Of a stretch of DNA of 64,000 bases, positions 606 through 39,362 are shown in pieces. The stretch lies in the NCBI RefSeq assembly GCF_023702675.1, contig NZ_CP098478.1, positions 3,410,001 to 3,474,000 on the forward strand, given 5' to 3'. Each line of letters starts with the position of its first letter. The stretch's first letter is position 1. A program made the position numbers and the translations under genes. The notes beneath the pieces were generated by a model. It did not search any database. It was not told the DNA's origin and saw nothing but the letters and a program-made list of their open reading frames with translations. Source of the stretch: Acinetobacter sp. C26M (GTDB lineage Bacteria > Pseudomonadota > Gammaproteobacteria > Pseudomonadales > Moraxellaceae).

Positions 606-644
606 TGTAAGGGTATTCCTACAGAGCAACAAAAAGGGTTTATC

Positions 645-33358: not shown

Positions 33359-34874
33359 TTAGTTAGGGAAAATGACGCCCGTATTTAAATCAAAATAAGT
33401 CGATGTATTGCTATACACTGAGCCCAGTTTGACATTAATAAACCAACCTAAATTACCTTGATCTTGTAAGCGATTCTGAATTTCGCTCGGTAGATCAAGT
33501 TTATAAATTGCATCTTCTTTAAATACTTTGGATTCAATCGTGGCTGTACTTGCACTATCACGTTCAAATAAATAGCCTTTAGTATTATAGAATTCAACCG
33601 CATTGTCTTTATCAATCAAGTGATAACCTTCAGCTGCTTGTTGTTTAAGTAATAAATCAAGTTTGGTTGGATTATCCTCATAAAAGCCTGCGGGTGTGGT
33701 TGGCATTTCAAAATAACGATAACTATAAGTACCATTATGAGTACTACTGTTTACGCAGGTAGGGACATAAAACATATCATTGGTTGTGCCATTATTAGTA
33801 TACGTGCTCCCAGCAAAAACTAGCTTACAACCCTGTGCCCCTAAAGTATTAAAAGCCTCTAAAATAACAGATCGGGTCGCCTGACTGGCGAATATGAACC
33901 GATTATCATAAGTATAGATTGCTGGTTTTTTTATCATTTTTGACAAATAAATGTTTATAGGTATTGCTTGGATCTTCTCTCAGGTATGACTTATACGCAA
34001 AACCTAATGCACCTTGTTTTTTCATTTCTGCCAAACGCAGTAAATACCTATCTGCAACAACTTTGGTGGTTACATCTACAATTTTATAACTATAGGTATC
34101 CGTTGAAGCATTGTTTTTAACATACAAGTTTTTAGGTTCAGGGAAATCACTATTTGCTTTTTTCACATCCAAAGAAGTACCTGCCAAAGCAAAACCTTGT
34201 GTACCCTGCTCATTGGCTTGAGCCAAGAAGTTCGACCATGAACTTTGGTTATCTAACAAACGATAGCTTGCCGTTGCCTTTTTCGCTGTCGGTTTGAATA
34301 AACTATAACCTTCAACATTGGTGCGCGTATAGCAAGTAACAACTTTTGAAGGATCTATTGCATCCATAATGGTTTGGATGTCTTTGATCGTTGCGGTTGC
34401 TGGAACATCACACATTCCATCACCTTTAAAAGCATAAGCAGAAGCAATAGCATTGCGGTATCTATCAGTATATTTCACCCGATTCGCTGTAGTTGTACCA
34501 CTGGTTTCAGTCGGTGCGATATCAGTAATTAACGCGTCATCTGAAGCAACAGCATAGTTTTTAATGACTGCACCCGTACAATCCTCTTTTTCAAACTGAC
34601 GAGTTTCAATAGTAAAACGAACACTGTTTTCGGATGCTTTATGTACCGTTAAATTGGTTCGTGCGCCTTTATTGCAGAAACCACCCAACCAAGATCCCAC
34701 AAAACGATCAGCTACGACTGGAGTTGGTGTAGGGGTTGGTGTCGGCGTCGGAGTCGGTGTAGGCGTTGGCGTCGGTGTAGGCGTTGGGCTTGAATCCGAA
34801 TCATTATCCGATCCACAACCCACCAGGATTGCACAAGTTACGCTGAGTGCTAGTTGTGTCCATATATTTTTCAT
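33359..34874 (-). pseudogene. exported lipoprotein of unknown function, interrupted by a +1 frameshift in a poly-A tract
   Basis: The 5' frame (34874 to 33906) codes for a lipoprotein signal ending in ILVGC, a Ser/Asp stretch, about 11 Pro-Thr repeats, and a domain with several Cys (WLGGFCNKG, ITDIAP, CYTRTNVEGYSL). It ends at a TGA after HLFVKNDKKTSNLYL. The second frame (from 33946) begins in the same place and reads KNDKKPAIYTYDNRFIF onward for about 190 residues. Removing one A of the A7 run at 33926-33932 fuses them. The total of 1516 bases is 3n+1, as expected. The intact product would be about 504 residues. The cause may be slippage or error. Confidence 0.78.
34719..34788 (-). repeat. 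tandem hexamer repeat coding for Pro-Thr
   Basis: About eleven imperfect 6-base units of the form GGNGTN (plus strand) code for alternating Pro and Thr between the lipid anchor and the globular part of the lipoprotein. The number of units may vary between strains by slippage. Confidence 0.8.
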
Positions 34875-37186: not shown

Positions 37187-37921
37187 ATGCGAAGCTTACT
37201 GCTCCCTCTCGTTTCTCTCATTCCAGTGCTTAGCCTTACGGCTTGTGGAGAAAATTTTTCTGTCGCCAATGTCAGTCTGGGTGGAAGTGGATCTGGTACC
37301 CAAAAGCCACTTCCTGGTGGTGACACTGGGGGAATTTCAAACCCATCTACGGGTGACAAGGATGAAGTCTATGAATATGTGGTCACTGTTCCACAGGAAA
37401 CACAAGACACCTGTATGGGCATACAACGCAATATGCGCTTGATCGATTGGGAAACCAAACAGGCTTTGCCAATAGGTCTCACTCAGCCGATTAACATCAC
37501 ACCATTACAAATTGAGATTAAAAACACCACCCCGAATTATGTCTATCAACTGGTTCCACTATGCAGCCCTATCGAGTTTCAGCTTGACCAAACACCTATG
37601 GCCTTTGGGCAATCGTTAAGATGTGGCGCCGATCAAGATGAACTGCAATTACTTCGGCCATACGAAACACGTACCTACGAGCTGAGCTTAAGCTTTGCAG
37701 AAACTGAACTTCCGTTCATCGTAAGTTACAACGCCTTTTATCAGACAGAATTACCAAAGGCTGACACGGTATGGAAAAAATGTGATGCCGTAAAAATGGT
37801 CGTCCCTATTCATAAACGTCGTGTTCCAAAAGTGATTGGAACAGAAGAGCCACCGATCACTAACCCAGAGATACCTACAGGTGAACATCCTGAAATACCT
37901 GCTGGGGAAACTGCGGATTAA
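37187..37921 (+). CDS. lipoprotein of unknown function, downstream of DUF6502
   Basis: This 244-residue protein has a lipoprotein signal with lipobox SLTAC, so Cys20 should be lipidated. A Gly/Ser-rich linker follows, then a beta-rich domain with several cysteines (C at TQDTCMGIQ, PLCSP, LRCGAD, KKCDA) that could form two disulfides. The C-terminus is Pro/Glu-rich with EIPTGE/EIPAGE repeats and looks disordered. It starts 3 bp after the DUF6502 stop, and a pair of these genes is found together in related genomes in my recollection. No function can be assigned. Confidence 0.75.
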   Translation: MRSLLLPLVSLIPVLSLTACGENFSVANVSLGGSGSGTQKPLPGGDTGGISNPSTGDKDEVYEYVVTVPQETQDTCMGIQRNMRLIDWETKQALPIGLTQPINITPLQIEIKNTTPNYVYQLVPLCSPIEFQLDQTPMAFGQSLRCGADQDELQLLRPYETRTYELSLSFAETELPFIVSYNAFYQTELPKADTVWKKCDAVKMVVPIHKRRVPKVIGTEEPPITNPEIPTGEHPEIPAGETAD

Positions 37922-37936
37922 TATTTACTAAGACCA

Positions 37937-38103
37937 AAAATTAAAACCCGAGTTTTGCATCCTGCAAAACTCGGGCAAATGAGGTTGTGCTTTCAAACTT
38001 TTTATTATCCTGCGTCCATCGCATGCATCATATCCATGATGACTTTTCCATCTCAGCGTCTCTATCCCTAAGCGGAAGTCCATTCCTGCGTCCTTGTGCT
38101 GAT
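37937..38103 (-). ncRNA. candidate CsrB/RsmY-type small RNA that binds CsrA
   Basis: The minus strand of this gene-free stretch holds nine GGA motifs in about 165 nt, four of them as ATGGA and one as AAGGA. Several are presented in hairpin loops: GGAA-TGGAC-TTCC (38074-38086), CATCAT-GGAT-ATGATG (38026-38041) and TGCG-ATGGA-CGCA (38011-38023). The fourth is the 3-base GGA loop of a perfect 13-bp terminator stem (37947-37975), followed by TTTTAATTTTT. A -10-like TATTCT lies at 38110-38115, giving a start near 38103. GGA in hairpin loops is the CsrA target, so this is the expected build of a CsrA-titrating RNA. The upstream palindrome at 38159 supports its own promoter. Confidence 0.75.
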
Positions 38104-38158
38104 GTATTTAGAATAAACCTTTTATCAAGGTCCGGCTATTCGTTGCAGACTTAAATCC

Positions 38159-38178
38159 ATGTACGAAATAACGTACAT
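38159..38178 (-). promoter_or_regulatory. candidate GacA upstream activating sequence
   Basis: ATGTACG and CGTACAT flank a 6-base spacer. The core TGTACGTTATTTCGTACA (minus strand) fits the GacA box TGTAAG-NNATNN-CTTACA at 10 of 12 arm positions and has the central AT. Its centre lies about 65 bp upstream of the proposed RNA start. A similar distance is known for rsmY and rsmZ of Pseudomonas. Confidence 0.65.
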
Positions 38179-38231: not shown

Positions 38232-39362
38232 TCAATTTTGCATTTGTTGCTTATGTGGTTGAGCTAAAGAATCTGTCACCTGCTTTTCCTCTTGTTCCGC
38301 CTTTTCGATTCCGTCTTGTATTGCTTGTTGAGCTTCTTTTTCATCCTCTGCTGTCTGTTCCAATGCCTCTTGCTGCTGTTCAAAGACACGCCCTGTTTGT
38401 AATACCACATAGACTGGAAAATGATCAGAACCGATATGTGGCAGGCGCTTCATCTCAACTAAACCAAAATCGGTACTATGAAAGATATGATCAAGCGACC
38501 ATCTCAATAAAGGATAATCTGCATGAAAGGTATTCATAAAATAGCGTCCGACTCGAGGATCAAGCAAACCACTAATACGCTGAAATAAACGCGTTGTTCT
38601 CGACCAAGCCACATCGTTTAAATCCCCCATCACAATACAACTCTGATCCAAATCTTTAATTTGATCACCAACAATTAACAATTCTGCATCTCTTAGTGTT
38701 GAATCTTTTGCTTCTGTTGGACTTGGTGGTTTTGGATGCAAACAATACAACTGCACCTGCACGCCCGATGGCAAAGTCAAACATGTATGAATAGAAGGAA
38801 TTTCATCACTTAAGATAAATTTAACTTCAGTATTATTTAAAGGTAAACGGCTATACAGATGCATTCCGTACAAATTTTCTAAGGGAACAGGTACTCGAAA
38901 TGGATAATCTTGCTCAATCTTACTCAAGGCTTGTTGCCAAGCTGAATTAGATTCAAGTGTAAGAACAAGATCAGGTTTTAACGTTTCAATATGCTCGATC
39001 AGCAGATGATATTTATGATTTGGTGTCAGGACATTTGCAACCAGTAGTGAAATTTGTTGCTCAGGATTGAATTGTTCCTTTTTCACTTTCTGGACTTGTT
39101 TTCGCCATAACGGGGTATAAGGCAGAACCATTTTTAATTGATAAGCAAGCGCAGCCACTAGACCAATAAACAGTAATTCTGTACTCAAAGTCCAATCAGA
39201 AAGCACAAATAACATTGCAAAAAATGTGATGATGCCGAGTGCCAATATTTGTAATCTGGGAAAGTCTGCCCCACGAAACCACCATTCATCTCTGGGGATC
39301 AAAGACCAAAATGAAAGCCATATCACCAGTGCTGCACAAATCTGAATCCATATCATGTTCAT
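38232..39362 (-). CDS. membrane-anchored endonuclease/exonuclease/phosphatase family protein
   Basis: The 376-residue protein has two or three N-terminal membrane segments (about residues 6-22, 38-55, 60-77) and then an EEP hydrolase domain. Key residues are visible in LLVANVLTPNHKY, the catalytic GDLNDVAWS, and the distal GSDHFPVYV with Asp-His. The C-terminal 50 residues are Gln/Glu-rich and look like a disordered or coiled tail. The substrate, nucleic acid or phospholipid, is unknown. Its 3' end lies 54 bp upstream of the candidate RNA control region on the same strand. Confidence 0.85.
   Translation of the reverse strand: MNMIWIQICAALVIWLSFWSLIPRDEWWFRGADFPRLQILALGIITFFAMLFVLSDWTLSTELLFIGLVAALAYQLKMVLPYTPLWRKQVQKVKKEQFNPEQQISLLVANVLTPNHKYHLLIEHIETLKPDLVLTLESNSAWQQALSKIEQDYPFRVPVPLENLYGMHLYSRLPLNNTEVKFILSDEIPSIHTCLTLPSGVQVQLYCLHPKPPSPTEAKDSTLRDAELLIVGDQIKDLDQSCIVMGDLNDVAWSRTTRLFQRISGLLDPRVGRYFMNTFHADYPLLRWSLDHIFHSTDFGLVEMKRLPHIGSDHFPVYVVLQTGRVFEQQQEALEQTAEDEKEAQQAIQDGIEKAEQEEKQVTDSLAQPHKQQMQN

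Follow-up and report, generated by a model that had tools for sequence, protein, structure and literature searches.

A proposed small RNA conserved in Acinetobacter, with GGA hairpins and a GacA-type box, as a probable decoy for CsrA

From the minus strand of an intergenic gap in Acinetobacter sp. C26M, an earlier note had read a candidate CsrA-titrating small RNA with a GacA-like control site. This raises the question whether the gap gives rise to a free RNA that keeps CsrA from its targets, or whether its motifs serve another purpose or none at all. According to the accessible parts of the literature, CsrA and GacSA have been studied in Acinetobacter with regard to metabolism, drying survival, and virulence; a literature search of partial coverage returned no experimentally shown CsrA-titrating RNA of this genus.

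The locus and its GacA-type box

The window, by which we mean the whole analyzed stretch of 64,000 nucleotides, covers positions 3410001–3474000 of a 3.93-Mb single-contig Acinetobacter genome; the features of the locus are collected in Table 1. Over the 10 kb round the RNA locus, the closest of the 98 loci compared is that of Acinetobacter sp. Ac_5812 (87.4% over 5768 aligned bases), followed by that of A. dispersus (85.9% over 7903 aligned bases). The minus strand of the RNA region holds no open reading frame of at least 60 aa, and an ATG-initiated frame of at least 40 aa occurs in 4 of 95 RNA homologues: Judged by its sequence, the window RNA is free-standing, non-coding, and equipped with an intrinsic terminator, as is characteristic of the Csr/Rsm functional class. 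Elsewhere in the window, a putative lipoprotein (33906–34874, minus strand) carries a Pro-Thr repeat run after its signal sequence, which is coded by a short repeat and could vary in length.

Table 1. Coordinates of the proposed RNA, its parts and neighbors (window numbering) and of the shorter copies (genome numbering).
Feature	Position	Strand	Remarks
Proposed small RNA, ~160–167 nt, nine GGA	37938..38104	-	5' end placed by -10 and conservation
GacA-type palindrome TGTACG-TTATTT-CGTACA	38160..38177	-	centre ~64 bp before proposed start
Putative -10 hexamer TATTCT	38110..38115	-	TANNNT conserved at same place
Outer stem, TCAGC (38098–38102) with GCTGA (38053–38057)	38053..38102	-	encloses hairpin 1 and open GGA sites
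Hairpin 1 GGAA-TGGAC-TTCC, loop GGA	38074..38086	-	three pairs within tested structure
Hairpin 2 CATCAT-GGAT-ATGATG	38026..38041	-	covariation and GGA retention
Hairpin 3 TGCG-ATGGA-CGCA	38011..38023	-	GGA retention; sequence differs between species
Conserved, rather open GAAAGCACAACCTCAT just 5' of terminator	37979..37994	-	conservation across loci
Terminator, perfect 13-bp stem, loop GGA, then interrupted U tract	37947..37975	-	sequence and covariation
Endonuclease/exonuclease/phosphatase family gene, upstream of RNA	38232..39362	-	PF03372, 109.7 bits
Convergent gene beyond terminator, reads like lipoprotein	37187..37921	convergent to RNA	sequence reading
Short copy (R2 match)	G000:C1 26265-26388	-	124 nt
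Short copy (R2 match)	G000:C1 97414-97538	+	R2
Short copy (R2 match)	G000:C1 101453-101588	+	R2
Short copy (R2 match)	G000:C1 102872-103008	+	R2
Short copy (R2 match)	G000:C1 3716065-3716188	+	R2
Short copy (R2 match)	G000:C1 3716943-3717066	+	R2
Short copy (R2 match)	G000:C1 3885511-3885634	+	R2

CsrA-titrating RNAs typically have a GacA/UvrY-type palindrome upstream at a fixed spacing, and the GacA site follows the consensus TGTAAG-NNATNN-CTTACA. Against this consensus, the palindrome of the window matches at 10 of the 12 arm bases plus the central AT, just as the earlier note had put it, and it is the sole occurrence of TGTAMG-N6-CKTACA in the window. Taken alone the box is weak evidence, since the 32 genome places that fit its pattern with at most one mismatch (7 are exact) fall below the 50 of a reversed-pattern control. 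It is the combination of position and conservation that turns the window box into strong evidence: The distance of about 65 bp to the start that had been proposed recurs across species, with the box present in 30 of 30 loci and its centre lying 63 nt before the start in 29 of them and 64 in one. Among the 98 loci the best upstream site, scored against the same consensus, agrees at 14 of 14 positions in 17 loci, at 13 in 52, at 12 in 22, and at 11 in 3, so that 94 loci reach at least 11; the remaining four score 7–9, which would agree with truncated upstream DNA, as six of the loci are represented by fewer than 330 nt on that side. A TANNNT occupies the -10 place in all 94 loci (of the 98) with enough upstream DNA, in 93 at identical spacing and in one a base off. 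At the level of sequence, the window RNA thereby shares the fixed-spacing GacA/UvrY-type palindrome of the Csr/Rsm functional class, and GacA would be expected to bind it. Palindromic sequences upstream of rsmX, rsmY, and rsmZ are called potential GacA sites, with no letters given, in the accessible part of PMC2375449. A further GacA-type palindrome with one mismatch, TGTAAGGGTATTCCTACA, lies at window positions 606–623.

Base-paired structure and GGA sites

The nine minus-strand GGA motifs that the earlier note had counted in about 165 nt are present (nine in 166 nt). Of 2000 dinucleotide shuffles of the RNA stretch, 9 reach this number, as do 5 of 2000 base shuffles. A 166-nt frame moved along both window strands in steps of 10 nt contains nine or more GGA in 8 of 12,768 placements, and every placement with at least eight sits at the RNA locus, which is the densest GGA cluster of the window. 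Two elements of the proposed fold stand with reservations. Hairpin 1 with its GGA loop has comparative evidence on its side, but it measures only 4 bp here and is disfavored by the single-sequence fold, in which its GGA is unpaired with a probability of 0.35. The terminator has the perfect 13-bp stem and the loop GGA that had been claimed, but its U tract is interrupted (TTTTAATTTTT). In this species one of the nine GGA is predicted to be paired and another mostly paired; the GGA at position 57 (counted from 38105) is unpaired with a probability of 0.04, that of hairpin 2 with 0.94. Across homologues, the GGA triplets are predicted to be more open than other G and A residues in 93 of 95 cases (mean 0.727 vs 0.525), and the placement of several GGA in predicted loops or unpaired stretches is again what characterizes the Csr/Rsm functional class.

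The structure was evaluated on three alignments. A1 consists of 24 rows from 30 aligned loci, with five near-duplicates and a short form, L015, left out; it was aligned by MAFFT without structure, but A1 was already in view when the structure was chosen: RNAalifold put hairpin 1 elsewhere, and the structure was assigned manually on the basis of rows showing compensatory changes, after which it was tested. A3 (98 rows, 95 distinct) and A4 (34 rows, 32 distinct, no motif selection) were fitted to R1, a covariance model of 24 sequences and 28 pairs, and their counts therefore lean towards the structure. In A1, 96.0% of the cells pair, compared with only 32–42% for slid structures, and double changes are found in 8 pairs as opposed to 2.9 in shuffles (0/500). 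The corresponding values are 97.1% and 12 pairs vs 5.5 for A3, and 96.0% and 18 pairs vs 4.8 for A4, each with 0/500 shuffles. Further pair types were significant on A4 (0/500) and not significant on A1 (35/500 shuffles) and A3 (76/500).

The pairing counts can also be given for single elements. All five positions of the outer stem are paired in 24 of 24 A1 rows, two of them with double changes; the stem varies as A-U, G-U, and G-C, and in A3 99.3% of its cells pair, with a change from A-U to G-C in 15 rows. Within A1, hairpin 1 is paired in 89.6% of the cells (G-C to A-U or C-G in 3 rows), hairpin 2 in 91.7% with no double change, and the terminator in 98.4% with 5 double-change pairs; in A4, hairpin 2 shows three double-change pairs.

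For the retention of GGA sites we relied on loci that had been found independently of these motifs. A pattern scan had yielded 98 loci, 97 from Acinetobacter and one from a Moraxellaceae MAG, and it required GCACAACCTYAY and a terminator start with AGGA; the near-perfect conservation of those two parts in the 98 loci is thus partly built in. Retention of GGA sites and of the conserved element was therefore re-measured on 33 loci obtained by blastn or covariance model, with no motif required. The earlier note had staked its proposal on GGA loops being conserved across species, and they are retained in these 33 loci: All 33 have a GGA both 5' of hairpin 1 and in its loop zone. The GGA after hairpin 1, that of the hairpin 3 zone, and that of the terminator loop are each present in 32 loci, the one in the loop zone of hairpin 2 is present in 28, and those in the stem side of hairpin 1 and in the linker are each kept in 26. 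Single sites are lost in some species, e.g. that of hairpin 2 in 5 of 33, and overall the GGA sites stay while the stems change. The 30 loci first aligned have six to nine GGA per RNA, the window RNA having nine.

Distribution and shorter GacA-box RNAs

With blastn, the intergenic stretch finds a match in 31 of 58 genomes, namely its own, 30 of 36 other Acinetobacter, and none of 21 from other genera. The R1 search detects the RNA in 163 of 175 Acinetobacter genomes, own included. Under laxer filters, one of the 12 misses (G179) gives a match with 40 bits and E 4.5e-6, and the other 11 give nothing below E 0.16. This divergent form, L208, differs in the sequences of hairpin 1 and terminator and has GGA in both loops. 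The 11 genomes without the RNA are all at least 90% complete and all have GacA, and because of this the window RNA is regarded as dispensable; redundancy would fit, although absence in 11 genomes does not prove it. A test for co-loss counts for neither side, GacA being present in 12 of the 12 genomes missed by R1. Among 299 genomes of the family, R1 matches 124 from 3 of 16 genera: 119 belong to Acinetobacter, four to genus g31, and one to g26. In the four g31 loci, the palindrome reads TGTAAGCAATTACTTACA and the start CATCAGCGCAGGA; nine GGA follow from that start, and the terminator contains GGCAGGACGCC, for which reason we take these loci as real homologues; the g26 locus has no palindrome within the 110 nt read upstream. 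Species with pattern-scan loci include A. baylyi, A. pittii, A. nosocomialis, A. calcoaceticus, and A. seifertii. One locus labeled A. baumannii (L098) has an RNA that differs from the A. nosocomialis and A. pittii forms, so its label is not relied on. The 98 pattern-found loci and the model-searched genomes overlap in part and are not independent sets.

Two variants deserve a brief description. L015 (genome G030) is a natural short form of 127 nt up to the end of the terminator stem, which is devoid of the hairpin 2 and 3 stretch and retains box, terminator, and GCACAACCT. L143 and L144 (G129 and G015) are weak extra R1 matches in stretches that also hold tRNA genes; they represent a second, shorter RNA type with an ATCAGC start, a GacA-type box, and GGA sites.

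The genome of the window contains seven further units in which a box is followed, after 65–67 nt, by 125–136 nt with four to six GGA, GGA hairpins, and a GGA-looped terminator (Table 1, short copies). These seven shorter RNAs look built for the same CsrA-titrating job. Ten of the 32 box places mentioned above are accounted for by the window RNA, the seven GGA-rich units, and two units beside recD, and 21 have few GGA or no such layout, as judged in a scan whose terminator test was too strict and missed real units too. R2, a model built from the seven short units, finds a match with E <=0.001 in 38 of 40 Acinetobacter genomes, at 1 to 11 copies. Each of 20 R2 hits from four other genomes (22 listed, 35 counted) has a box with at least 10 of 12 arm positions, centred 59–61 nt before the model start; 8 of 1000 shuffled upstream sequences reach 10 and none more. 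Genome G018 combines eleven short copies with the long RNA. In the accessible part of a review (PMC7366521), the number of functional RNAs is put at up to seven, with nine listed for Azotobacter vinelandii, and G018 would stand at the top of reported numbers by a count of sequences rather than of tested RNAs. The short copies stay below the gathering score of Rfam RsmY (RF00195): Four of the seven loci scanned (L154, L155, L159, L160) give 19.8–27.8 bits vs 57, and of 20 short copies of relatives, one gives a sub-threshold RsmY hit and another 18.5 bits vs 71 with CsrB. We discounted these sub-threshold RsmY hits as support, as unrelated models (plastid 3' UTR, threonine leader, and others) produce similar E-values.

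Two GacA-box units of the own genome lie between recD and a convergent gene. The first (L158, G000:C1 ~3527795-3528018, minus strand; relatives L231–L242) has the box TGTAAGTAAAGGCTTACA and a conserved, GGA-poor unit, the 3' part of which, terminator included, hardly varies among the 12 best loci aligned. Of 38 genomes searched, 24 (own included) match its region; the unit gave no Rfam hit up to E = 1 and is possibly a Gac-controlled RNA of another kind. The second box (L157, G000:C1:3527584-3527601, minus strand) is followed by a unit that has some GGA and, ahead of a T run, a GCCCAAGTTCAACTTGGGC hairpin; matches over nearly the whole recD region occur in seven genomes, own included. In evolution experiments with A. 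baylyi, the accessible text of PMC11426457 reports frequent mutations in csrA, hfq, and rnd, as well as mutations in a predicted small RNA between the convergent recD and ACIAD0400.

Function, alternatives, and known systems

In the mechanism that we favor, phosphorylated GacA would bind the palindrome and activate the promoter about 64 bp downstream; the resulting RNA of about 165 nt would end at the GGA-looped terminator, and its GGA sites in loops and open stretches would bind several CsrA dimers, which would thereby be withdrawn from their target mRNAs. The observed sequence and its conservation, the base-paired structure, the fixed box spacing, and the presence of the pathway genes are the grounds from which we infer transcription, GacA control, CsrA binding, and a physiological effect. 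That the locus encodes such a free-standing small RNA, activated by GacA and working as a decoy for CsrA like CsrB/RsmZ, is in our estimation very probable. The claim of the earlier note to this effect is backed by GGA retention, box score, and constant spacing; in a wider sense, conservation within the genus, covariation in three alignments, retained open GGA, and the constant spacing of box, -10, and start all argue for it, as does the very divergent L208, which keeps both GGA loops despite its changed sequences. The genome further provides the partners, as is usual for the Csr/Rsm functional class: one CsrA (NCBIfam CsrA 118.5 bits, cut-off 73), a GacA candidate, which scores 267.1 bits with the UvrY/SirA/GacA model as against 162.5 with the next family and has an orthologue in all 18 Acinetobacter genomes tested (own included), and a GacS-like hybrid kinase with HisKA, HATPase, receiver, and Hpt domains. 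Together with the seven loci of the same plan in this genome, they strengthen the decoy reading. The same holds for published genetics: In A. baylyi a phenotype caused by the loss of gacA depends on csrA, and the authors build their model on noncoding RNAs that would sequester CsrA, none of which is named in the accessible part of the paper (PMC12455638). Against the decoy reading speak the score of the GacA candidate just under its NCBI cut-off (280) and that of the kinase well under its own (568.1 bits vs 890), the lack of an Rfam Csr/Rsm match up to E = 10, the one GGA predicted to be paired and the other predicted to be mostly paired, the loss of single GGA sites in some species, the absence of the RNA in 11 of 175 genomes, and the unexplained CACAACCT.

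This last element, which has no GGA, is not explained by CsrA titration. In the 33 motif-unselected loci, CACAACCT is kept in 32, GCACAACCT in 29, and AAGCACAACCT in 26; GCACAACCT has a mean unpaired probability of 0.616 over 95 rows (lowest 0.24), and genus g31 reads GAGAGCACAGCCGC at this place, retaining GAGAGCACAGCC. It may be a site for a ribonuclease or for a protein, or else a seed for pairing. One might therefore imagine a two-handed regulator, in which the GGA hairpins remove CsrA and AAGCACAACCTCAT acts separately, by pairing with mRNA starts or by way of another protein, beside an unusually large Gac-driven decoy set (seven further copies in this genome and as many as eleven in a relative) that acts as a graded dose. 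If so, one Gac signal would set two outputs; we regard this as rather unlikely, and slightly more so since L208 turned out to be without the element.

Improbable, in turn, is that the RNA is in the main a base-pairing regulator whose business lies in AAGCACAACCTCAT, which contains the anti-Shine-Dalgarno-like ACCUC, with CsrA binding secondary or absent. The rather open state of the element and its retention, also in another genus, would suit such a role, but the GGA sites, needless for pairing, are kept as well, and L208 has GGA loops in the absence of the element. Moreover, the complement RTGRGGTTGTG, searched as one exact pattern, occurs 7 times in the genome, as does its reversed control (7); one occurrence is the RNA gene itself, and the remaining six, none of which is at a start codon, comprise five within longer frames and one outside any frame of at least 60 aa.

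Still less probable is a cis-acting leader, 3' UTR, or attenuator of a neighboring gene in place of a free RNA. The nuclease gene lies directly upstream on the same strand in 88 of the 89 loci (of 98) with at least 700 nt upstream, so that read-through could reach the RNA, but the latter has its own conserved box, -10, and terminator, and the gene beyond the terminator is convergent in this genome: Its protein, which has no Pfam or NCBIfam match, is found there in 16 of 90 loci. A chance GGA cluster next to a fortuitous palindrome, for which one could adduce that such palindromes are not enriched genome-wide and that nine GGA are only moderately rare for this composition, is refuted by conservation, covariation, and spacing across species.

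We thus return to the decoy reading and to the systems with which it invites comparison. The covariance models of CsrB, RsmY, and RsmZ to which the earlier note had looked did not recognize the window RNA, nor did that of CsrC: Rfam RsmY, PrrB_RsmZ, CsrB, and CsrC give no match at gathering score and none up to E = 10, and no Rfam Csr/Rsm match up to E = 1 was found in 20 loci, 13 of which are Acinetobacter homologues of the window RNA. For this reason the RNA fits the functional class and not the Rfam sequence families. It resembles RsmZ, RsmY, and RsmX of Pseudomonas in the GacA-type palindrome upstream, in the GGA of hairpin loops and open stretches, in being free-standing with a terminator, and in the occurrence of several RNAs per genome. 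It differs from RsmY and RsmZ by the outer stem round hairpin 1 and the conserved CACAACCT, neither of which has, to our knowledge, a counterpart there. CsrB and CsrC of enterobacteria (RF00018, RF00084) have many GGA loops, a terminator, and control by a GacA-family regulator, all of which they would share with the window RNA, whereas CsrB, besides the missing Rfam match, is set apart by its model of 356 positions as compared with about 165 nt. McaS of E. coli, which according to the accessible part of PMC3971182 titrates CsrA and base-pairs, offers a model for a possible double role of the window RNA, with the difference that the one exact complement pattern searched yielded no pairing partner.

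Closest in kind and genus are published predictions. The accessible part of the review lists RsmX, RsmY, and RsmZ as predicted for A. baumannii with reference to Kulkarni 2006, bracketed RNAs there being found by genome inspection and not characterized by experiment (PMC7366521), and Table 2 of PMC5568370, likewise seen in part, gives ACIAD0018/0019 and ACIAD2750/2751 as locations of predicted RNAs of ADP1. An ADP1 prediction (25 kb, minus strand, ~119 nt) resembles a short copy of the present genome (26.3 kb, minus strand, 124 nt) in place and size. The kind of RNA is well known and predictions for A. baumannii and ADP1 are already in print; possibly new are the structure with its covariation support, the distribution across the genus, the phasing of the promoter, the range of copy numbers, and the conserved unpaired element. 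With concrete loci, boundaries, and structures for a genus-wide family, which comprises a long RNA in single copy and a set of short ones in several copies, it becomes possible to test directly how GacA and CsrA are linked in Acinetobacter.
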